Source of the DNA: a virus
Reading direction: 5' to 3' (one strand)
Length of the DNA stretch: 27,336 nt
IMG/VR virus record: IMGVR_UViG_3300044802_000026
Location: 1 to 27,336 of that record
The notes below the pieces were generated by a model. That model did not search any database, was not told where the DNA came from, and saw nothing but the letters and a program-made list of their open reading frames with translations. A program made the position numbers and the translations under genes. Shown here piece by piece: positions 12,570-25,221 of this stretch; position 1 is the first letter of the stretch; each line of letters starts with the position of its first letter.

Positions 12570-13277
12570 CTACCAATTCCTCGCTCTGTGGCCGACTCTA
12601 AGTCGGATGTTGCCCTTCTGAGTGTCCCCTGCCTCACACCTCCTGCGCTGCTCATCGGCCATGGCCTTGAAGGTCATCGCCAGGCCGTCCTTGCTGTTGT
12701 CGAAGGCTACGCCCATGGCCACGAAGTAGGTCATGTACAGCGTCCATGTGCGCCTGATGTCCAGGGTCACGGCGCCAGTGTCTCCGCCACGCAGTAATCG
12801 GACGCGGGTGTACTTGAACGTGATCGTCGATGAGTTCGGAACCGGCCAGAAGATGATGCTGACGGTCCCCTGCTTCTCGACGTAGGCCCGCGATGGGTTC
12901 CCGGTCAGGGTGCTCTTCGAGGCGATGTTCATGTACTCGCCACGGGACATCGTCTTGACCTGGGTCTCGACGCTCGATCCGGACGCCAGAATGGTTCCGA
13001 TGGTGTCGTCCTGCCCAAGCTCGACATCGATGGTGTCCGCTGCGAGGGCGTAGGCCACCTGGTTCGCCACCAGCGAAAGACTTGTGCGCTCGGCGGTGGT
13101 GAGGATGAGCCCTACGGATTGAAGATTCTGGAGTGCCAGGTTGAAGTGAAATGAAGCGTTCGCAAGCTGCTCGGGGCTCGGCTCCTGCGCTTCTTCCAAG
13201 AGGCCGCACATGCGAATGGCCGCGGTCAGAATCTGGTCGCGTTGGAAGTCCGGGGTTGGGTTGGCTGATGTGCTCAT
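12570..13277 (-). CDS. P22 gp4-like head-completion / tail accessory factor
   Basis: A 235-aa protein similar in layout to P22 gp4 (about 166 aa), which docks under the portal, closes the packaged head and provides the platform for gp10. Visible family-like features are an N-terminal helical region (DQILTAAIRMCGLLEEAQ, with LANASFHFNLALQNLQ), the AYALAADTIDV segment, a central SRGEYMNIASKSTLTGNPSRAY stretch split by the usual basic residues, the strand IIFWPVPNSSTITFKYTRVR, and a C-terminal helical part (YFVAMGVAF, then MADEQRRRC). The ATG overlaps the stop of the zinc-ribbon gene (ATGA) and has a GGAGGG SD. Encoded beside the gp10-like and tailspike genes, it fits a portal-to-hub connector. 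Assignment by eye is fairly strong. Confidence 0.75.
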   Translation of the reverse strand: MSTSANPTPDFQRDQILTAAIRMCGLLEEAQEPSPEQLANASFHFNLALQNLQSVGLILTTAERTSLSLVANQVAYALAADTIDVELGQDDTIGTILASGSSVETQVKTMSRGEYMNIASKSTLTGNPSRAYVEKQGTVSIIFWPVPNSSTITFKYTRVRLLRGGDTGAVTLDIRRTWTLYMTYFVAMGVAFDNSKDGLAMTFKAMADEQRRRCEAGDTQKGNIRLRVGHRARNW

Positions 13278-13501
13278 GGTCCCTCCCGAGTCTTTCCCTT
13301 CACTGGCTCGATGTACCCTACCTCTGCCGCCGACTCCTGCGCCAGCTCGAAAAGCGTCTTTCCATTGAAGCAGTCATGGCAGCGAAGGAGCCCATCGGTA
13401 TCGAGGCGCATCTTCGTGCGGTGCCAGAAGCACCCGCAGTAGTCGCACATGTCCGTGTAGTTGTACCGCGGACCTATGTAGCGCCTTCCGATGGTTTGCA
13501 T
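13274..13501 (-). CDS. Small zinc-ribbon protein, function unknown
   Basis: A 75-aa protein with two CxxC knuckles (MCDYCGCFW and LRCHDCFNG) about 20 residues apart, the spacing of a structural zinc ribbon. The rest is charged, ending EPVKGKTREGP. I chose the ATG at 13501 because an upstream in-frame GTG at 13561 lies inside a strong hairpin that looks like a terminator; neither start has a clear SD. The gene overlaps the gp4-like gene by ATGA and sits between capsid and connector genes. Such small zinc proteins are common in phage structural clusters, often uncharacterised. It may be a head-joining or assembly factor, but that is only positional inference. Confidence 0.6.
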   Translation of the reverse strand: MQTIGRRYIGPRYNYTDMCDYCGCFWHRTKMRLDTDGLLRCHDCFNGKTLFELAQESAAEVGYIEPVKGKTREGP

Positions 13502-16131: not shown

Positions 16132-16524
16132 TCAGATGTTGGACGCCGGGACACCCTGCGCGTCCACGATTCCATCGATGCCGCCGGGGGCTCGCTTCTT
16201 CGCATCTCGCGCCCGAATGAGCGCATCGCGATCCTTGGCCCTCTGATCGAACTCTTCCTTCTCCAGCCAGATGAGAACGTTGCCCTGGAAGGTAATCCGC
16301 CCGTTGGCGTCTTGCCTTCCGCTGTTGGCCCGCTCCTTGTCCTTCGAGGCGTTGATCTCATGCCACCCGTTGTCAAGGTGGAACGAGAGCCCCTGAAGGT
16401 CATCATTCGGATTTGCGTAGAGGTAGGCCCTGTCGTCGCGCTTGTTTTTCACAAGCCCTGCCGACGCCGGGTTCACCCCGCGGACTCGTGCTGGTACTGG
16501 TTCAAGTGTCGTGCTCGCTGCCAT
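16132..16524 (-). CDS. Small protein between scaffold and capsid, function unknown
   Basis: A 130-aa protein. The ATG at 16524 was chosen because a GAGGAGGAG purine run lies about 10 bases upstream; an in-frame ATG at 16581 lacks this. The core (about 32-92) has AYLYANPNDDLQGLSF, GWHEINASK and GRITFQGNVLIWLEKEEFDQR, a mixed beta pattern that resembles small uncharacterised proteins often found just before phage capsid genes. The C-terminus is basic then flexible (RARDAKKRAPGG). The ARDAKKR string is also found near the C-terminus of the ejection protein at 2757-5237. A capsid-assembly or minor head role is inferred from position alone. Confidence 0.6.
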   Translation of the reverse strand: MAASTTLEPVPARVRGVNPASAGLVKNKRDDRAYLYANPNDDLQGLSFHLDNGWHEINASKDKERANSGRQDANGRITFQGNVLIWLEKEEFDQRAKDRDALIRARDAKKRAPGGIDGIVDAQGVPASNI

Positions 16525-16644
16525 GGATCGCTCACTCCTCCTCGTGTGAGGTTGTGAGCGCTCGGTTCCGCGCCACGGCACGAGGACCGCGGGGAATGGA
16601 GCACCTCTAGCCTGGAGACTCAGACCCGAACAACGCGGCTAGAA

Positions 16645-16747: not shown

Positions 16748-17689
16748 TTACTGATCCTTGAAGTAGTTCGGGTCTTGCTTGAGCATCATCTTCGTCCACC
16801 CTGCGATAGCCGTCTCGCGCTCGACGCTTGGACCTGCCCAGGCAACGGCCACGCGCTCTTCCACCTTGGTGAGAGGTCGCGAGAACCCGCCGCTGGAGCT
16901 GGTTGAGTTGGGCGTCGGCGAAGAGAAGCGCGCACGCTGGGCATCCGATGGCCGCGCGCTCGGCCTCTGCCGAATTCCAAGGTCATGCGCCGCCTGGGTG
17001 AGAGATGCCCGGTGTCCCTCGAACTCATTGAACACCCTGCGCTCTCGATTCGCCTTGGCCCGAGTCTGCTGGAAGAGTCCCCATGCGTACTCGCGAGCAC
17101 TATCGTCTCCAAGCACGTCGGCGAATTCCTGCTTGAGCGTCCGCACTTCGTAGCTCTCTTGCGGCGGATTTGCCTTTGCAAATGCCTCCTGCGATTTCTT
17201 CGCAACCTGCTCGGCCACGAGTACCTGCTTCTCCTTTTCCAGGCGCAGGTATTCTCCGCGGTGTTTTTGCAAGGCCTCGGGAGTCTTCGCGTTTCGCATC
17301 GACTCGATCAACTCTTCCTGGCGTTCTGTCTTCGCCGTCCACTCGTCGGCATCAGCCGGAGGCGTTCCCGGCGGGACATACGGTCCCTGGGATGGCCGCT
17401 GTTGCTGGAGAAGCTGACCTAGATTTTGAATGGTCCGCTCGAACTGGGACAGGCGTTCGTGGAACGGCCGGTTCTGCTCCTCGATGGCCTTGCGGATGCG
17501 CTCGGCCTGCTCTTCCTGCCGGCGCTCCCTCCTCGACTTTCCGTCGAGTTGGCCCGAGACGACATGCTGTCCGCTCTCGTTTTTACTGACCTCTACGTCT
17601 GGACCCTGGTCATCGTCGCCATCGGACATCGCGTCCGAACCTTCGCGCACCTTCGGTTCAGTCTCTGCGTTTTCTCGAATTTTGCTCAT
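16748..17689 (-). CDS. Candidate scaffolding protein
   Basis: A 313-aa protein of typical scaffold composition: an acidic, disordered N-terminus (MSKIRENAETEPKVREGSD, then DGDDDQGPDVEV), a long Arg/Glu/Gln-rich coiled coil at about 50-100 (KSRRERRQEEQAERIRKAIEE, LGQLLQQQ), a Pro-rich break, a second charged helical region to about 235, a Ser/Pro linker, and a compact C-terminal helix pair (VEERVAVAWAG, TAIAGWTKMMLKQD). Scaffolds guide coat assembly and leave the procapsid before or during packaging; the C-terminal helices usually bind coat. The gene sits between portal and coat genes as in P22. The ATG overlaps the previous stop as ATGA and has an AAGGAG SD at ideal distance. No protease domain was seen. 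Confidence 0.75.
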   Translation of the reverse strand: MSKIRENAETEPKVREGSDAMSDGDDDQGPDVEVSKNESGQHVVSGQLDGKSRRERRQEEQAERIRKAIEEQNRPFHERLSQFERTIQNLGQLLQQQRPSQGPYVPPGTPPADADEWTAKTERQEELIESMRNAKTPEALQKHRGEYLRLEKEKQVLVAEQVAKKSQEAFAKANPPQESYEVRTLKQEFADVLGDDSAREYAWGLFQQTRAKANRERRVFNEFEGHRASLTQAAHDLGIRQRPSARPSDAQRARFSSPTPNSTSSSGGFSRPLTKVEERVAVAWAGPSVERETAIAGWTKMMLKQDPNYFKDQ

Positions 17690-18012
17690 TGTCCACTCCT
17701 TCCAATGATTAGGGCCGCGACTCGAATTGGAGCGTCTTCCTCCTCTTCAGTCGTTCCCTTTCCAAAGGTTCTGTTTGCATCATCTAGACCTTCTACGTTA
17801 GGAAACTTGCATGCCCTATCCCTAAGAGCTTGTCTCAGTTTTATTTCCCACCTCCTGTATCTGCGAAGCAGTGCCATTGCAAACGCCAGTGCGCTCTCGC
17901 CTTCCCTGATGTCGAATAGGTCCCTGAGCGCATCCCTGAACTGAGACAGCTCATTGGCTACGTTTTCGTGGAAGATTTCGTCTTCCATGCGTCTCTCTGA
18001 TTTCTCGCACAT
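17686..18012 (-). CDS. Putative nested 108-aa product from the internal start
   Basis: An in-frame ATG at 18012 inside the duplicated gene retains the same GGGAG Shine-Dalgarno and six-base spacing as the primary start. Translation from here would give only the second half of the protein (MCEKSERRM onwards). Whether it is used cannot be told from sequence, but the SD is as good as the primary one. Confidence 0.5.
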   Translation of the reverse strand: MCEKSERRMEDEIFHENVANELSQFRDALRDLFDIREGESALAFAMALLRRYRRWEIKLRQALRDRACKFPNVEGLDDANRTFGKGTTEEEEDAPIRVAALIIGRSGQ

Positions 18013-18300
18013 GGTGCGCTCCCTCATGTGTGCAATCAGTTCTGCTGCGACAAGGATTGGGACGTTTTCCGCCCTCTCTTCCATGTCCCTATGCTCTGGC
18101 CACTTTTCAACGTACGCAGCGAGAGCTTTCTTCAGCGCAATCTCCCAGCGCCTGTATCTCGACAGCATCATAATGGCGTACAATTGGGCGCTCTCACCCT
18201 CTCGCAAATCAAACGCCCCCTTTAGATATATTGCCAGCGGCATCTCCCCTGTGGCCAGACGGGCATGTGATAGCTCATCCATTGTTTTCCGTTCGCACAT
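17686..18300 (-). CDS. Internally duplicated protein of unknown function with a preserved internal start
   Basis: A 204-aa protein made of two homologous halves. Each begins MCE(R/K) and carries FD(L/I)REGESA, then (S/R)RYRRWEI and a helical KAL/QAL segment, and ends with P-I-x-V-A-A (VPILVAAELIAHM; APIRVAALIIGR). The first start (18300) lies 10 bases after the stop of the GroES-like gene and has a GGGAG SD. The second half begins at an in-frame ATG at 18012 preceded by the same SD, inside an identical 20-bp block (18005-18024 and 18293-18312). The frame reads through without a stop, so both a 204-aa and a 108-aa product are likely. Helical, highly charged, no known family. Position between GroES-like and scaffold genes suggests an assembly role, which is inference. 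Confidence 0.75.
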   Translation of the reverse strand: MCERKTMDELSHARLATGEMPLAIYLKGAFDLREGESAQLYAIMMLSRYRRWEIALKKALAAYVEKWPEHRDMEERAENVPILVAAELIAHMRERTMCEKSERRMEDEIFHENVANELSQFRDALRDLFDIREGESALAFAMALLRRYRRWEIKLRQALRDRACKFPNVEGLDDANRTFGKGTTEEEEDAPIRVAALIIGRSGQ

Positions 18301-18310
18301 GGTGCGCTCC

Positions 18311-18841
18311 CTAGATGTCGTCGGGGTATGCGGTTGGTGACTTTCGGTCGATGACCTTGCCGTTCTTTGCGTAGGCGTGCCGGCCATCGGCCGTGTGGCT
18401 GAGGACGATGGAGCCATCGACCACGCGCACGAGCGTGTCCTCGTCGAGAATCACATCTCCGACGTTCATGAAGAAGAACTCGATAGGCCCGCGCTCATCC
18501 CGCCCTGTCTCGAACCTGTACGGGACGTGCGGCGCGAACCACACGAGGTCTCCGATGTCCATCCCGCTGCCGAGGAGGACGTCCAGCGCCTGGAGCCCGG
18601 AGGACACGATGATCCCGCGTGGGCTGCGGGCAACGTCTACGGCCTTGCGCGAGTCGGGCTTGTAGAGGAGGCTTTCCTCACCGAACTTCTCGTTGGCCGC
18701 GCCTTCGTCTGGAATGCGATAGACGAGGATGCGCTCGAATTGAGCTTGCCCAGGCCACGGTGGAATTTTGAACTCGGCAATGCGCGCCTGGAGTAGCGCG
18801 AATTGCTTGGTCAGCTTCGCCGCCGCCTTCTTACTTGGCAT
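18311..18841 (-). CDS. GroES-like co-chaperonin-type protein
   Basis: A 176-aa protein. After a basic helical N-terminus (about 1-33), residues 35-140 follow the GroES plan. ERILVYRIPDEG matches the first strand of GroES, a mobile-loop-like polar stretch comes next (EKFGEESLLYKPDSRK), then RSPRGIIVSSG (like the GxVVAVG strand), a short insert, MDIGDLVWFAPHVPYRF (like VGDRVLF), and a final VGDVILDEDTLVRVV (like the EDILAV strand). GroES is about 97 aa, so there are extra N- and C-terminal segments. Phage GroES analogues (T4 gp31) work with host GroEL to fold coat protein. The ATG at 18841 overlaps the end of the previous gene (ATGCCAAGTAA); two upstream in-frame ATGs lie inside that gene. It sits in the portal-scaffold interval. 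The resemblance is by eye. Confidence 0.6.
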   Translation of the reverse strand: MPSKKAAAKLTKQFALLQARIAEFKIPPWPGQAQFERILVYRIPDEGAANEKFGEESLLYKPDSRKAVDVARSPRGIIVSSGLQALDVLLGSGMDIGDLVWFAPHVPYRFETGRDERGPIEFFFMNVGDVILDEDTLVRVVDGSIVLSHTADGRHAYAKNGKVIDRKSPTAYPDDI

Positions 18842-19088
18842 AGTCTTTTGCCCCATCGAGAAGAGCACCGATCGCTTCCTTCTCCAAGAGTGCCATGCGC
18901 AGGGAGTTAAGGCCTAAAGGTTGCTCTGCGCCACAAAGCATCACCATGTCGACGATCTTCCTTTTCTCCAATGCGACCGCCTTGGTGTTCAGCTCTTCAA
19001 TCCTCTGCGTGACGGGGTGGACGAGCCACTCCTGAACTGATGCCTTGTCTATCCCGTTGAACGGGCTCTCCAATTCCTTCAATGCCAT
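18831..19088 (-). CDS. Small helical protein after the portal gene, unknown
   Basis: An 85-aa protein, predicted mostly helical and amphipathic (ESPFNGIDKASVQEWLVHPVTQ, IEELNTKAVALEKRKIVD, LRMALLEKEAIGALLDG). The start lies 19 bases after the portal stop with an AAGGGG purine run a few bases upstream, and its last codons overlap the GroES-like start. Small helical proteins at this place are common in phages with this layout. No family is recognised. Possibly a portal- or scaffold-interacting factor, on position only. Confidence 0.65.
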   Translation of the reverse strand: MALKELESPFNGIDKASVQEWLVHPVTQRIEELNTKAVALEKRKIVDMVMLCGAEQPLGLNSLRMALLEKEAIGALLDGAKDYAK

Positions 19089-19107
19089 GGTTCACCCCTT
19101 GGTATGG

Positions 19108-21345
19108 TTACTGGTTCTGTGCTGCTTGCGCCGGAGTACCCGGCGGAATCGTGTGCTGTGGTGGCTGGGCACCAGGCGCCGTTGTCGGCTGTCCGTTCGG
19201 CACGGATGGCGGGTGAGGCGCTCCATTCGGCGGCGGGCCACCCGGATGCGGAGGCTGCGCGCCGGGTGGAGGCGCGGCCTGCTGCTGGGCAATCTTGGCT
19301 TCGATTTCCTCGTTGGTGAGGACCATCTTAGCCATGGCGTACTCGCCGCGGGCGCGAAGGCAGTTGCGTGCCGCCTCTGCGTAGATCTGAAGCTTGAAGA
19401 TCATCGGCGCAATCTGCGGAGGAATGCCCTTTGTGAGCATGGCCAGCACGTCGTCCTTCTCGGCGATGTTCGCGACCCTGCTCTTGAAGCTTAGGTCTGC
19501 CGAGAAGATGATGGTGAAGTCGTCCTTGTACAGGTCGCGCCCGATGGTGATCTTCTGGGTCTGCTGCGTGGCTGGATCCAAGACATCCTGGAGCTGCTCG
19601 TCGTGCATGAACTGGAAGTCCAGCATGGCGTTGTTCTTGGCCACCTGCGAGAGAACGAGGATGAAGTTTGCTGCGAAGACGCTGAGCTGCTGGACGGCCT
19701 GCTCGACGCGCGTGGCCTGCCCGCGGTACGTCTCGTCGCCGCTCTTCTCGCCCGAGAGGATATCGGGGGCGCTGCTCACTCCATCCGCCGACTGCTGGGC
19801 CAGCGTGACGGCCTCCAGGAGCTGGGTGTTGGCCTGCGGTGGGCGCCACTGGTAGAATGCCTTCTCCACCCCATCCGGCGGGATACCATCGACCGTCACC
19901 AGCTCGTTCGGGTTGATGGTCGTCGTCCCCGTCGGAAGCTTGACCATCTTGTGAATGAAGCCGGTGAAGCTGTTGGAGAGCGTGGCCTGGTCGATGAATT
20001 GGTTGAGGGCGATGTTCGCCTGCATCTGGAACGGCACCAGGAGCATCCCCACCCCGAGGCCATGGGAGCCGTCCGGGTTCCAGATGCAGCATCCGTGGGA
20101 GAATGGCTCGATGATCCGCTGCTTGCACGGCTTCGTAGGCTTGGGCATTCCGGTCTCATCGGTCTCCATCCACTGCGGAGGCACGGGCGGCGGCGGGCGG
20201 TCCCGCTGCACCTGCTGGGCCACGGCCAGAGACTCGTCATTCGGGATAGATGGGTGCTGAAGCGTCGATAGGAGCTGGCTCTCAAGGCCCATCATGTGAG
20301 AGTACTGGGCGACGTTTGCGTGGTAGGTGGTGAACTCCTGCGACTGCTGGTCGAACCGCGCCCGATCTTTCGGGTCGTCGTAGTACCTGCTGAAGATACC
20401 TAGGATGACCTTGCTCTTAGTCTCCATGACCACGCGCACTGGAATTTCGTCGGCACCTGGAATCTTCGCCCACCCGTAGTACTCGTAGAGACGGTACGGT
20501 ACGTCGGAAGTGTGAGCAGTCGGGTCCACGCCCTCGTATCTGTCCGTCGTCTCCTTGATGACCTCTCCATCATCGGCCTCGAACGATCCCTTGCCGTGGG
20601 AAATGACCTTGTCCACCTGCTCGTAGATGCCGGCGTCCTGCATGCGGAGGAGGTCGCGCCGGTAGAGGAACATCACGCGGGTCTTGTGGGGCACATCGGA
20701 CATGTCAGGAGCCATCGAGCGCCGGGTGTAGGGGTAGATGAACTCGTCGACAGATAGGTGAACGTGTCGGTTGACGTTGTTTTCCTGGTCGCGCGTGCTG
20801 AAGAACACCACGTCGCCATCGCGAATGAATTCCATGAGGCCGCAGTGAACGTGGCTCGGGAAATCCGGTATCTCCTTGCGGAATTGCCAGTTTTGGTGAA
20901 GCGTAATCAGCTCCGCTCTCTCCTCGCTCACCGCCGAGCTTGGCTGGGCCGAGAAAACGGGCTCCCCGTCCTTGAAAATCTGCCCCCAAATTCGCGATTC
21001 GAGCCGCAGGGTGCGTTCGAGCAAGATGGGCAGGTGCATGTTGGCGCAATTGGCGAACGGCTCGGCCTTGGGCTCCAAATCCCCGAGCCAGAGCTTCATG
21101 CGCTCGGCGCGCTTATCGATCCACTCGCTGCGCCCCTCCAAGTCTTCGCGCACGTCCTTCTCTATTTGCTCCGGAAGGGTCACTTCTACGAACTTCTTGT
21201 ACTTGTCGCCCTTGCCGAGCATGAACGTCAGCAGGTTGATGACGTTGTCGGGCAGCGCATCATCTCCTGCGCCGGGCTGCTCTGCCATTTCCTCGGACGG
21301 TGGGTCCATTGCCTCTGTCGCTGGATTGTTCTCATCATCTTGCAT
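19108..21345 (-). CDS. Portal protein, P22-like large portal family
   Basis: A 745-aa protein, close to P22 gp1 (725 aa). The ATG at 21345 has a GGGAG SD eight bases upstream; in-frame ATGs at 21381 and 21360 overlap the preceding gene and lack this. After an acidic N-terminus comes TLPEQIEKDVREDLEGRSEW with WLGDLEPKAEPFANCANMHLPI, a typical start of large portals. Then follow a wing-like region (HVHLSVDEFIYPY, LYEYYGWAKIPG), FSHGCCIWNPDGSHGLG, LNQFIDQATLSNSFTGFIHK, then SGEKSGDETYRGQATRVEQAVQQL and a helical stem/barrel-like end. The C-terminus from about 680 is extremely Pro/Gly/Gln-rich and probably disordered. The dodecameric ring sits at one capsid vertex, is the DNA gate, and contacts the terminase encoded just upstream. 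High confidence. Confidence 0.85.
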   Translation of the reverse strand: MQDDENNPATEAMDPPSEEMAEQPGAGDDALPDNVINLLTFMLGKGDKYKKFVEVTLPEQIEKDVREDLEGRSEWIDKRAERMKLWLGDLEPKAEPFANCANMHLPILLERTLRLESRIWGQIFKDGEPVFSAQPSSAVSEERAELITLHQNWQFRKEIPDFPSHVHCGLMEFIRDGDVVFFSTRDQENNVNRHVHLSVDEFIYPYTRRSMAPDMSDVPHKTRVMFLYRRDLLRMQDAGIYEQVDKVISHGKGSFEADDGEVIKETTDRYEGVDPTAHTSDVPYRLYEYYGWAKIPGADEIPVRVVMETKSKVILGIFSRYYDDPKDRARFDQQSQEFTTYHANVAQYSHMMGLESQLLSTLQHPSIPNDESLAVAQQVQRDRPPPPVPPQWMETDETGMPKPTKPCKQRIIEPFSHGCCIWNPDGSHGLGVGMLLVPFQMQANIALNQFIDQATLSNSFTGFIHKMVKLPTGTTTINPNELVTVDGIPPDGVEKAFYQWRPPQANTQLLEAVTLAQQSADGVSSAPDILSGEKSGDETYRGQATRVEQAVQQLSVFAANFILVLSQVAKNNAMLDFQFMHDEQLQDVLDPATQQTQKITIGRDLYKDDFTIIFSADLSFKSRVANIAEKDDVLAMLTKGIPPQIAPMIFKLQIYAEAARNCLRARGEYAMAKMVLTNEEIEAKIAQQQAAPPPGAQPPHPGGPPPNGAPHPPSVPNGQPTTAPGAQPPQHTIPPGTPAQAAQNQ

Positions 21346-21350
21346 CGAAG

Positions 21351-22049
21351 CTACTCCCATCTCTGCGTGCGTGGGTTCCACGTCTGGTCAGCATTACCCC
21401 AACCAGAGCCAGCATTGGGTGGTATGATGCCAAGGCGGTTTGGGTTTTTCGGTTTCCGATAGGTTTTGGGATTGGCAAAGCCTGAACCTGCGGATTGACT
21501 GCTTGCCATCAGTGATCCATCCCCCATGCCGTCTCTGGCATCAACGAACGCGGCTTCGTCCTGTGCCGTCCATGCACCACCTGGCCCAGAGCCACCTTTC
21601 CCGCGTTTGTAGGGAGGACTGGATCCGCCCGTTACGCCGGCCAGCCCATGGGTGAAGTATCGATCCATATCGCCCCCCTGAATTCCGCTGTTGCGGATGT
21701 TGTACTCATCCAAGGCGCTTCTGACCTGGTAGTCATCATCGCCACCGCCGAAGCCACCTCCACCTCGTTCGCCTTCGTCGGCTGCCTTGGCGAGTCGCCA
21801 TGTCTGTTCGAGGGCACCAGGAGGCGCCGCGGATAGCTTTTGGTGGTCCATGATGAAGTCCTTCTCTGGGTCGTGGCCCTCGATCCACTCTTTCGGGACC
21901 GTGAAGTTGACGCCATCAGGATCTTCGAGCACGACCTGGCCGTCTCTTGTCTCGACCACCTGAAGAGGAATGCCAGTGATGCCTTCTGAGGCGGTCGGCA
22001 CGCCAGATCGTGCAATCTCGGCCATTGCTCCTGGAAGTGAGTCATTCAT
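21351..22049 (-). CDS. Unknown protein between terminase and portal, disordered C-terminus
   Basis: A 232-aa protein. Residues about 25-60 look like a small beta domain (GIPLQVVETRDGQVVLEDPDG split by a turn, VNFTVPKEWIEG). The middle is helical (LSAAPPGALEQTWRLAKAAD), followed by a Gly-rich tract (GERGGGGFGGGDDDY) and a Gly/Ser/Pro/Asn-rich, probably disordered tail ending NPRTQRWE. The start overlaps the terminase stop as ATGA and the end overlaps the portal ribosome-binding region, so its translation is coupled to both. No known family; a packaging-motor accessory or head protein would fit the position but is not shown. Confidence 0.65.
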   Translation of the reverse strand: MNDSLPGAMAEIARSGVPTASEGITGIPLQVVETRDGQVVLEDPDGVNFTVPKEWIEGHDPEKDFIMDHQKLSAAPPGALEQTWRLAKAADEGERGGGGFGGGDDDYQVRSALDEYNIRNSGIQGGDMDRYFTHGLAGVTGGSSPPYKRGKGGSGPGGAWTAQDEAAFVDARDGMGDGSLMASSQSAGSGFANPKTYRKPKNPNRLGIIPPNAGSGWGNADQTWNPRTQRWE

Positions 22050-23608
22050 AGACCGTACCCGTACTTTCTTTGCTGGCGCAGCATGCGCGCGTCGCGAAGG
22101 TCGTCGCGGTCTTCCTCATCGACGTACTTGCGCGCGCTCTTCTCGGCGTCTGGCATTGCGTGCATAGCAATATACATCAAAGTCTCAAGCCAGTGACCAT
22201 TGTCATCCTTCTTGGGCTCCTCGGGGTTGTCTTTGTCCACCTCGATGAGCGGCATCGTCCGGATGAGATGCTTGCACCCCTCGAACACCATGAGGGCCGG
22301 ATGGGCACCTGGGCGAGAAGGCACGTCGGACATCCTGCGGATGATTTCCGCCGTCGCTGCGCCCCTGCCCTTGATGCTCGGGAGCCAGTAGACGCCCTCC
22401 TGGGCCATGGTCTGCTCGATGGTGGGGCCCGTGCCTCCGTCTCGCATGCGAATCTGGTAGTCGGCCGGGCCGGTGAGCATCGAGCACTTCCCGCGTACGT
22501 CCCACTCCCCGTGCTCAATCTCGATTTGCTTGATGGCGAGCGCGACCATCTGGGCATCCTTGCGCTGCCGGTCGGGAACGTCGTGGTTGAAGGTCACCTC
22601 GCGGTAGATGATGAGATCGCCGTCTTCGTTCTTCGCGAACCACATCACCGGGCAGGAAACCTTGTAGCCCCAGTCCATCGCGCGTCCGCGCGGCCAGTGG
22701 TCTGGAATGCCATCGGTCATCCGGCATTCTCGGCACGTTGAGCGTTTGTGCTGGCAGGTGAATGGCTTCACCACGTGGGCGGACGGAGTCCACAGGTTGG
22801 CGAAGAAGGCGCCCTCGACAGCATTCCAGTCTCCGAAGAGGCGGGCCTGGACGATGTGGCGCGGCTGAGTGCGCAGGTCGATTTCTGTCTGTCGCGCCAG
22901 CTCCTTGTTCGGATTGTCGGTCAGGAACGCGGGAATGAAAATGCGCGAGTATTGCTCAGTCGTCCCGTCGAACATGGTGACCGTATCGACCAGCATCTTG
23001 CGCCCCTCCGGTGCAGGATCCACGAAGCGCTCTTTCACCCACCGGCCCGAGGCCGGCGCATCCGGGTTCGACGCCAGCACACACCTGCGCTTGCCATTTA
23101 GGATGGAGTCTTCGGAGCGGAGACGGCGCCTGATGCCATCGAACTGTGACTTGGTGAACTGGATCACCTCGTCGAAGGCGATGTGGGAGTATTCCGACGT
23201 GTCGTAGGCTCTCCAGTCATCTTCCTTCTGGCAGTGGCCGAACTGCCACTTGTACCCACATGTGAACGTAATGAGGTAGAGCTTCGAGTTGTAGACCGCA
23301 CCGGGATCTACCTTGTAGACGAAATCTAGCACCTTCGAGATGGTCTGCATGAGCATCGGGAACGTGCGCCGCAGGTGCAGCGCCCACCCCTTCGACCGCC
23401 AATCAATCCCACGCGCACGCGCCGCAAGATACCGAGAATGCTCGCCTGGGCTCCCATTCCAGTCGTAGAGCTGGGTGATAATGCAATCCCACCGCAGAAA
23501 AAAGGTTTTCCCCGAGTTCTGCGTACCGCCATAGAGAATCTCGCGCGCCTCGCACGAGTGGGCCTCGTGCTGGACCTCCGAAGGCTTGTAGAGGACCGTC
23601 GGCTCCAT
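22046..23608 (-). CDS. terL: Terminase large subunit (ATPase and nuclease)
   Basis: A 520-aa DNA-packaging motor protein. N-terminal ATPase: Walker A GGTQNSGKT at residues 27-35, Walker B HIAFDE at 142-147 with the catalytic Glu, and a coupling-type segment (RCVLASNPD). C-terminal RNase-H-like nuclease: AMDWGY around D312, and TGPADYQI around D383, with a later acidic HWLETLMY region. Between the domains lies an unusual Cys/His knuckle (C285, H287, C292, C295) just before the nuclease. The protein pumps DNA through the portal and cuts it at headful or unit length. It starts directly after the stop of the preceding small gene (TAGATG) and overlaps the next by ATGA. No adjacent gene is a clear small terminase. 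Confidence 0.92.
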   Translation of the reverse strand: MEPTVLYKPSEVQHEAHSCEAREILYGGTQNSGKTFFLRWDCIITQLYDWNGSPGEHSRYLAARARGIDWRSKGWALHLRRTFPMLMQTISKVLDFVYKVDPGAVYNSKLYLITFTCGYKWQFGHCQKEDDWRAYDTSEYSHIAFDEVIQFTKSQFDGIRRRLRSEDSILNGKRRCVLASNPDAPASGRWVKERFVDPAPEGRKMLVDTVTMFDGTTEQYSRIFIPAFLTDNPNKELARQTEIDLRTQPRHIVQARLFGDWNAVEGAFFANLWTPSAHVVKPFTCQHKRSTCRECRMTDGIPDHWPRGRAMDWGYKVSCPVMWFAKNEDGDLIIYREVTFNHDVPDRQRKDAQMVALAIKQIEIEHGEWDVRGKCSMLTGPADYQIRMRDGGTGPTIEQTMAQEGVYWLPSIKGRGAATAEIIRRMSDVPSRPGAHPALMVFEGCKHLIRTMPLIEVDKDNPEEPKKDDNGHWLETLMYIAMHAMPDAEKSARKYVDEEDRDDLRDARMLRQQRKYGYGL

Positions 23609-23974
23609 CTACCCCATGTCCATGAGCCCGCACTCGGCGGCAATCTCCGGGTGCAGCAGCTTGAGTTTTGCCACCCTCTCGGCAATCACCTTCAGCTCCT
23701 CCAGGCGGTCAAGCGCCGCCGCTGCAAGGATTTCCTCCGGCCCGAGCGTGTGATCGTACCAGTGAGACTCAAGCAATCGCCCGAGCTCTCCACCTGCCTT
23801 CGCAGGAGAAGACTCAAATGACTGTAGCCTATCCTCAAGCTCGGCAATGCGACAGAAAAGCTTTTCCTGCTCCTCCGCCCTATCGGCTCTCAACCTGTGC
23901 CACCTCTCCTCATACCTCCTCGACGACGCCACGGCCGCGGCCAGCGAATTATGCAGAAATTCCTCGCATCCCAT
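23609..23974 (-). CDS. Small coiled-coil protein upstream of terL, unknown
   Basis: A 121-aa protein, mostly charged helix. RRYEERWHRLRADRAEEQEK and LFCRIAELEDRLQSFES form a likely coiled coil at about 18-57, and LDRLEELKVIAERVAKLKLL a second at about 88-107. The ATG at 23974 has AAGGAG five bases upstream, better than the GTG at 23980 that overlaps the SD. It sits directly before terL, where the small terminase subunit often lies, but no helix-turn-helix is seen, so a small-terminase role is only possible, not shown. The end overlaps the terL start region, implying coupled translation. Confidence 0.65.
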   Translation of the reverse strand: MGCEEFLHNSLAAAVASSRRYEERWHRLRADRAEEQEKLFCRIAELEDRLQSFESSPAKAGGELGRLLESHWYDHTLGPEEILAAAALDRLEELKVIAERVAKLKLLHPEIAAECGLMDMG

Positions 23975-23976
23975 GT

Positions 23977-24405
23977 TCACTCCTTCTCAGTCGGCTCCAC
24001 GTTCACCGTCTCGTACGCCTTCTTCTCCACCGTCATCACCACGTACCCCGCAATCGGCGGCAACTCATCCCGCCGCGCACCCGCCAGCTTCTGCGCCAGC
24101 TCCACCCGGTTGAAATGGCTCACGAGGTATCCCGGCATGTCCTTCATCGGCTTCATCGCGTCGTTGTGGATGTTCCAATCCGCATCGCTCATCCCCGCCG
24201 GCCTGACTAGCTCAACCCTCCTACTGACAATCTCACCAGTCTTTTCGTCAAAAACGTCAATCACCTCGCGCTTAACCTCATGCGTTCTATCTGCCACCTC
24301 GACGACCGCCATCGACTTCGCCACCCGACGCCCAAACTGCTTGGCCATCTGGTCGATGGGCGCCTTGTCGAGTGCCGTCTCTTCAGCCACGTTTGAGAAT
24401 CCCAT
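23977..24405 (-). CDS. Small unknown protein of the pre-terminase block
   Basis: A 142-aa protein with a helical N-terminus (DQMAKQFGRRVAKSMAV), a beta segment (VKREVIDVFDEKTGEIV), then SDADWNIHNDAMKPMKDMPG and a final strand (AGYVVMTVEKKAYETVNV). No family recognised. It overlaps its upstream neighbour by about 23 bases and its stop overlaps the next gene's SD, so it is part of a coupled unit. The start could instead be a GTG at 24390, five codons downstream, which has a GGGA element. Position suggests packaging or late-gene control, without direct evidence. Confidence 0.6.
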   Translation of the reverse strand: MGFSNVAEETALDKAPIDQMAKQFGRRVAKSMAVVEVADRTHEVKREVIDVFDEKTGEIVSRRVELVRPAGMSDADWNIHNDAMKPMKDMPGYLVSHFNRVELAQKLAGARRDELPPIAGYVVMTVEKKAYETVNVEPTEKE

Positions 24406-24565
24406 CCACGCGGTCAGCGACGACGGACGCTACCTCGCTCCAATACTTCTCGAATTTGCCAGCGTACTCGGAAACGTCGAAGATGAACTTCATTCTCTGG
24501 TCGACAATCTTCCGCACAGCCAAATTCATCTCGTCGCGCATCCTGTCGTCTGCAGTTTCAGCCAT
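24383..24565 (-). CDS. Very small helical protein, unknown
   Basis: A 60-aa, mostly helical, charged protein (MAETADDRMRDEMNL start; EKYWSEVASVVADRVDG near the end). Its ATG overlaps the stop of the zinc-ribbon gene upstream as TAATG, so it is probably translated by reinitiation; the SD is weak. No family recognised. Confidence 0.55.
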   Translation of the reverse strand: MAETADDRMRDEMNLAVRKIVDQRMKFIFDVSEYAGKFEKYWSEVASVVADRVDGILKRG

Positions 24566-24741
24566 TACAAGACGCCGCCTGCATCGCCATCAATCACGCA
24601 TTCAAGCTCGGGGGGAGCCGAACACCTAGGGCACACCTTCGACATATCCCCTTCGACCAACTTCTCCCCACAGCGCACGCACGCCTCCTGCGAATTCAAC
24701 GCCTCCACCTGAGCACGTCTCAATTCATCTCGGTCAAACAC
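24565..24741 (-). CDS. Tiny zinc-ribbon protein (GTG start)
   Basis: A 58-aa protein. The start is GTG at 24741, preceded by AAGGG and GAGGGG purine runs; the GTG overlaps the stop of the upstream 51-aa gene as GTGTTTGA. It has a polar helix (FDRDELRRAQVEALNSQ), then two knuckles, CVRC (21-24) and CPRC (37-40), 12 residues apart, the spacing of a small zinc ribbon, followed by an acidic tail. Such small zinc ribbons are common in phages and may bind DNA, RNA or partner proteins; no specific function is known. Overlaps on both sides support it as a real gene. Confidence 0.7.
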   Translation of the reverse strand: MFDRDELRRAQVEALNSQEACVRCGEKLVEGDMSKVCPRCSAPPELECVIDGDAGGVL

Positions 24742-24889
24742 GACCCTTCTTCCCCTCGTTCGCGTACAGCGCCTTGAGCTGCCGGTACGCCCGCGCCAGC
24801 GGTATCGGCTTCTTCGACATCGGCTGCCTCGTAGCAGACTTCACCACCTGCCCCTTGTCACCGTCGTGAGTCACAATGTGATATGGCAT
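24734..24889 (-). CDS. Very small basic protein, unknown
   Basis: A 51-aa basic protein (MPYHIVTHDGDKGQVV start, then a helix with RAYRQLKALYANEG). It has an AGGAG SD nine bases upstream and its stop overlaps the next gene's GTG. Proteins starting MPY and ending in a QL-ALY-N helix recur in phage small-gene clusters, but I know of no established function. Confidence 0.65.
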   Translation of the reverse strand: MPYHIVTHDGDKGQVVKSATRQPMSKKPIPLARAYRQLKALYANEGKKGRV

Positions 24890-24969
24890 TCGTCACACTC
24901 CTGTAGTTTAGCCGGCAGCCACCGGGCTGCGCGCTGCTCGCAGTACCGGCAGCCACCGTGGATTCGGAG
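24871..24969 (-). other. Open zinc-ribbon-like frame lacking a usual start
   Basis: This 32-codon open frame encodes GCRYC and ECDEC knuckles, an arrangement like a zinc ribbon, and ends with TGA overlapping the next gene. There is no ATG, GTG or TTG at a useful place; an in-frame TGA lies just upstream. It could be a decayed gene, a frameshifted one, or chance. A 13-bp direct repeat (CCGGCAGCCACCG at 24912-24924 and 24946-24958) lies within it. Confidence 0.3.
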
Positions 24970-25032
24970 TCACCTACTACCCAAATCCATGATGCCACAT
25001 CACAGTCCCGCCGTCTACTGCCTTGCCAGCTT

Positions 25033-25185
25033 TCAGGATGGCGCCTCCCCGAAGGCACGAGCAAGACTTCTGTCAGCCAGCGCAAGTCTCCTCCGCTGAG
25101 CCCGCGTCAGCTTTCCGCGAAACCTCACAGTAGTATCCCAGCCAAACACAAACTTATCCTTCCGAGTCAATTGCACGCTCTTCAT
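25033..25185 (-). CDS. Very small basic protein, tentative
   Basis: A 50-aa, strongly basic frame (MKSVQLTRKDKFVFGWD start, then KLTRAQRRRLALADRSLARAF). It lies on the minus strand in the small-gene block, 36 bases after the stop of the helix-turn-helix gene. No clear SD precedes the ATG. The regular amphipathic basic helix and lack of better alternatives favour a real gene, but chance cannot be excluded. Confidence 0.45.
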   Translation of the reverse strand: MKSVQLTRKDKFVFGWDTTVRFRGKLTRAQRRRLALADRSLARAFGEAPS

Positions 25186-25221
25186 GGTGAAAGTCAGAAT
25201 GCCTGAAAATCCGCTGAGTGG

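Follow-up and report, generated by a model that had tools for sequence, protein, structure and literature searches.

An orphan, putatively accessory gene in an uncultured tailed phage is an old fused tandem duplication with a second, in-frame copy of its start signal

In phage lambda, the nested product of the Nu3/C locus corresponds to the C-terminal portion of a longer protein that is not repeated. The 204-aa gene described here resembles lambda C/Nu3 in having an in-frame nested start within a phage head gene region; however, the lambda gene has no internal duplication, and its protease and scaffold functions are known. We regard the parallel as a loose analogy, and no homology is claimed. 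Internal in-frame translation also produces Cas11 from cas8b (PMC11899642; PMC13199841). There, as may be the case in our gene, an internal SD and start allow the C-terminal domain to be translated by itself, and both forms are in some cases required. However, the short form of cas8b has been demonstrated and is a complex subunit, whereas that of the 204-aa gene is a possibility, and descriptions of the long cas8b gene mention no tandem repeat with a duplicated ribosome-binding site (RBS), such as ours has. A predicted internal start in T. maritima failed in E. coli (PMC13199841), which calls for caution about the internal start discussed below. In pIGRK, one locus has been shown experimentally to give two in-frame products, RepR and RepR', through an internal start (PMC6854812), but RepR' is an N-terminally truncated RepR with no duplicated domain. 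A further likeness is to the insertion of small genes at phage gene borders, with moron-like cargo and mosaicism at boundary sequences (PMC3029335): here, too, an orphan of odd composition is flanked by conserved head genes and has an RBS box at either border, the difference being that it is internally duplicated and fused. In the open-access literature we found no report of a fused tandem duplicate that retains its RBS.

The window, i.e., the whole stretch of 27,336 nucleotides analysed (IMG/VR record IMGVR_UViG_3300044802_000026), carries this gene on the minus strand at 17686..18300, where the ATG occupies 18300-18298, the stop ends at 17686 and 204 codons form a single uninterrupted frame. 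Copy 1 comprises codons 1-96 (18013..18300, minus strand) and copy 2 codons 97-204 (17689..18012, minus strand), the latter being a possible separate product of 108 aa beginning with MCEKSER. The preliminary description had proposed two homologous halves in one open frame, and this was borne out: their local BLOSUM62 score was 149, while shuffled sequences gave a mean of 26 (sd 4.5, maximum 57, n = 5000), and tblastn with one half as the query matched the other half (E about 1e-14). The homology covers most of the length of both halves and is far above chance, with REGESA, YRRWEI and VAA common to both and an identity of about 38-43% that varies with the treatment of gaps.

Identity between the halves at codon positions 1, 2 and 3 was 0.62, 0.56 and 0.31, respectively (positions 1 and 2 versus position 3, P = 9e-6, Fisher test), which shows that both halves have evolved as coding sequence in their present frame. 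The nonsynonymous divergence was about 0.6, and dS was not computable because synonymous sites are saturated. Since third positions are near random, the two sequences duplicated, or split, long ago. The 204-aa gene is thus a real case of an old tandem duplication that has been fused.

The two copies also share their start signal. A 20-bp block of SD and ATG, AGGGAGCGCACCATGTGCGA on the minus strand, is identical at all 20 bases between 18293..18312, where the SD and the upstream gene's TAG stop overlap, and 18005..18024, where the block encodes RERTMC. The copies are 288 bp apart, and no further copy was found in the window even with three mismatches allowed (0.03 expected). The second ATG, at 18012, is codon 97 and in frame. 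All 12 bases 5' of the ATG match, even though those preceding copy 1 are non-coding and those preceding copy 2 encode RERT, and identity drops to chance immediately 5' of AGGGAG, so the recognisable duplicated unit starts at the SD. The preliminary description was therefore right about the identical blocks, about the second in-frame start and about the inclusion of a translation signal in the duplicated unit. A match at 12 of 12 bases has a chance probability of about 2e-4 if the overall site identity is used and a lower one with the third-position rate; for the 6-nt spacer alone the values range from 0.015 to 9e-4. Because synonymous sites are saturated, 12 identical bases 5' of the ATG are unlikely leftovers unless they have been selected. 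An unrelated phage contig, L026, also has a block of the form GGAGCGCACCATGTG at the start of one gene, but the protein encoded there is different and the match was set aside as a shared RBS type or coincidence. As a separate observation, both ATGs lie inside a 5-bp inverted repeat, CGCAC-CAT-GTGCG (18293-18306 and 18005-18018), which could mask the start. An RNA operator is not claimed for this hairpin; stems of at least 5 bp occur at 6 of 110 SD-ATG starts, a count that should include both starts of the 204-aa gene.

Whether the second start is used bears on what the duplication does. The predicted anti-SD energies of the first and second starts are similar (-8.0 and -7.7 kcal/mol), and the second SD is predicted to be at least as open (0.83 unpaired versus 0.53 for the first). 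Judged on these sequence features and on the retention of the block at saturated divergence, use of the internal start and production of the short form are plausible, with the chances about evenly divided. With one sequence available, any selection on the internal start is inseparable from the role it once had when it opened a free-standing gene. A different reading, which we hold to be possible though somewhat doubtful, accepts the duplication and fusion but treats the internal start as a relic, so that the 204-aa protein alone matters and the second SD-ATG was kept by chance or by weak constraint on the linker. More than half of 21 genes in the window contain an in-frame internal SD-start pair, so that one more needs no function, and internal ATGs preceded by GGAG are not enriched (3 observed versus 7.1 expected from codon shuffles). 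Protein constraint on the linker RERTMC would also account for part of the identity. Against this reading, all 20 bases of the block match, spacer included, whereas third positions elsewhere agree at the low rate given above.

The fusion was attributed in the preliminary description to loss of the first stop, a step that proved unnecessary. Since 288 bp is a multiple of three and the unit ended just before the stop, a duplication of this length fuses the copies in frame at once. Both copies in the window read GGAGCGCACCATG, which leaves the frame open, and the spacer is also free of the in-frame TGA found in the RBS box of related phages. In those relatives the box GGAGTGAACCATG at gene starts contains a TGA in frame with the following ATG, so any frame entering the next start in phase would end there. 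A TGA in the +1 frame does touch the second SD (CACATGAGGGAG); it could be a fossil stop, but the case for this is weak, as by our estimate chance alone would place a stop across the SD in one of the other frames in about one case in three. The same TGA would be the true end of copy 1 if the locus held two separate tandem genes and the fused frame came from an indel error in metagenome assembly. Upstream stops that overlap the next SD are common in the relatives (e.g., TAGGAG and TGAGGAG), but the error would have to be an indel of one or two bases within about 25 bases, and the +1 TGA is of the kind that chance supplies readily; we consider an assembly error highly improbable.

The surroundings of the fused gene were compared with those in 13 related phage contigs (portal protein identity about 40-56%). 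The gene order is mostly common to them: portal, an 85-aa gene, a 185-aa gene, a scaffold-like gene, further head genes and the major capsid protein, except that in the most distant of the 13 the 85-aa and scaffold-like genes escaped detection. In the window, the upstream neighbour of the orphan is the 185-aa gene kept in relatives (18311..18868, minus strand), and the downstream neighbour is a putative scaffold gene (16748..17689, minus strand), so named from position and composition only, the ATG of which overlaps the TGA stop of the orphan (ATGA). None of the 13 contigs has the 204-aa gene, and in 12 of them the stop of the 185-aa gene runs into the SD of the scaffold gene, which is the next head gene. 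One relative, L018, carries a different orphan ORF of 67 aa at this junction (13270-13500), with the box GGAGTGACCAATG at its start and again at the start of the scaffold gene. The 13-nt box GGAGTGAACCATG recurs in contigs L002-L025, mostly at the starts of the 85-aa and scaffold genes and far above the shuffle expectation, and a box of this type lies at 19089-19101 of the window.

Several other features of the window were noted. The 185-aa protein is present in the whole phage group and has no Pfam or PDB family match. For two ORFs the listed start is probably too early: the ORF at 16132-16581 has a strong SD before the ATG at codon 20 (AGGAGGAGTGAGCGATCCATG), and that at 19108-21381 has a good SD before the ATG at codon 13. 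Beyond the terminase gene, 23600-25200 departs from the rest of the window in its strongly negative GC skew (to -0.32).

No credible homolog of the 204-aa protein or of its halves was found in phages, plasmids, viral contigs, genome contigs, Pfam, NCBIfam, PHROGs, PADLOC or PDB. The label orphan holds for the sensitivity reached: one profile search had no positive control, and the back-translation searches reach only fairly close relatives. Profile comparison gave no support to an origin in the 85-aa gene nearby or in the scaffold gene. The predicted secondary structure is all helix at low confidence, the structure models were poor (mean pLDDT 40.5 and 68.9), and a fold search with the single-domain model against solved structures gave no convincing match. 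The GC3 of the gene is 0.556, compared with 0.754 for the other genes pooled (P = 9e-10), the pool excluding the gene at 1090-2325, which is itself low (GC3 0.519). The low GC3 suggests foreign cargo from a source of lower GC content. Two features expected of a moron-like gene are present, namely absence from relatives at the junction and a composition unlike that of the neighbours. The SD lying over the upstream stop and the stop lying over the downstream ATG argue for cotranscription with the operon, and late co-expression is predicted from the place of the gene in the head operon and from its stop-start overlap with the neighbour on either side.

The halves themselves differ in GC3 (0.615 and 0.505), and this is among the observations that would fit a recent recombination, at a gene border, of two already diverged alleles that each had a genuine start. 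If two such alleles were joined, the identity of the block would reflect selection on their starts while they were separate genes and would be uninformative about the fused gene. Saturated synonymous sites between the halves would be expected, the same junction has gained another gene in L018, and recombination near gene borders has been proposed for phages (PMC3029335). However, no single-copy allele was found in the searched collections, and the GC3 gap is small for about 100 codons each; we think such a joining of alleles distinctly unlikely.

We return to tandem duplication within the gene, for which the simplest history would run as follows. An accessory gene of about 95 codons may have entered the head operon between the 185-aa gene and the putative scaffold gene, and may have brought, or taken over, the local type of RBS box, its own box already being without the TGA before duplication. 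A tandem duplication of 288 bp, beginning at the SD and ending just short of the stop, would then have given a two-domain in-frame gene immediately, there being no stop in the spacer. The copies would have diverged under selection at the protein level while both translation starts were kept intact. From the first start a two-domain helical protein of 204 aa would be made, and some initiation at the second would yield the single-domain form of 108 aa; the ratio of tandem to single-domain protein could then be tuned, for example if the domain acts as an oligomer. Taken as a whole, this account of acquisition, tandem duplication, fusion and two products seems to us as probable as its failure in one part or another. 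A broader proposal would make the RBS box at the 185-aa/scaffold junction a portable gene-border module, with small genes entering or duplicating together with a copy of the box; loss of the built-in TGA (from GGAG-TGA-ACC-ATG to GGAG-CGC-ACC-ATG) would have made the dual-product two-domain gene, and selection would have kept the internal start. This we offer as speculation that is rather unlikely to hold in full.

The processes involved are known kinds of gene evolution, of which the 204-aa gene is a modest example. It illustrates how a duplicated small phage gene can turn into a two-domain gene while the old start persists, and it points to one junction in this phage group where new small genes enter with an RBS box. 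If the short form is made, the gene would be a compact natural case in which fusion and internal initiation together set the ratio of single to tandem domains.
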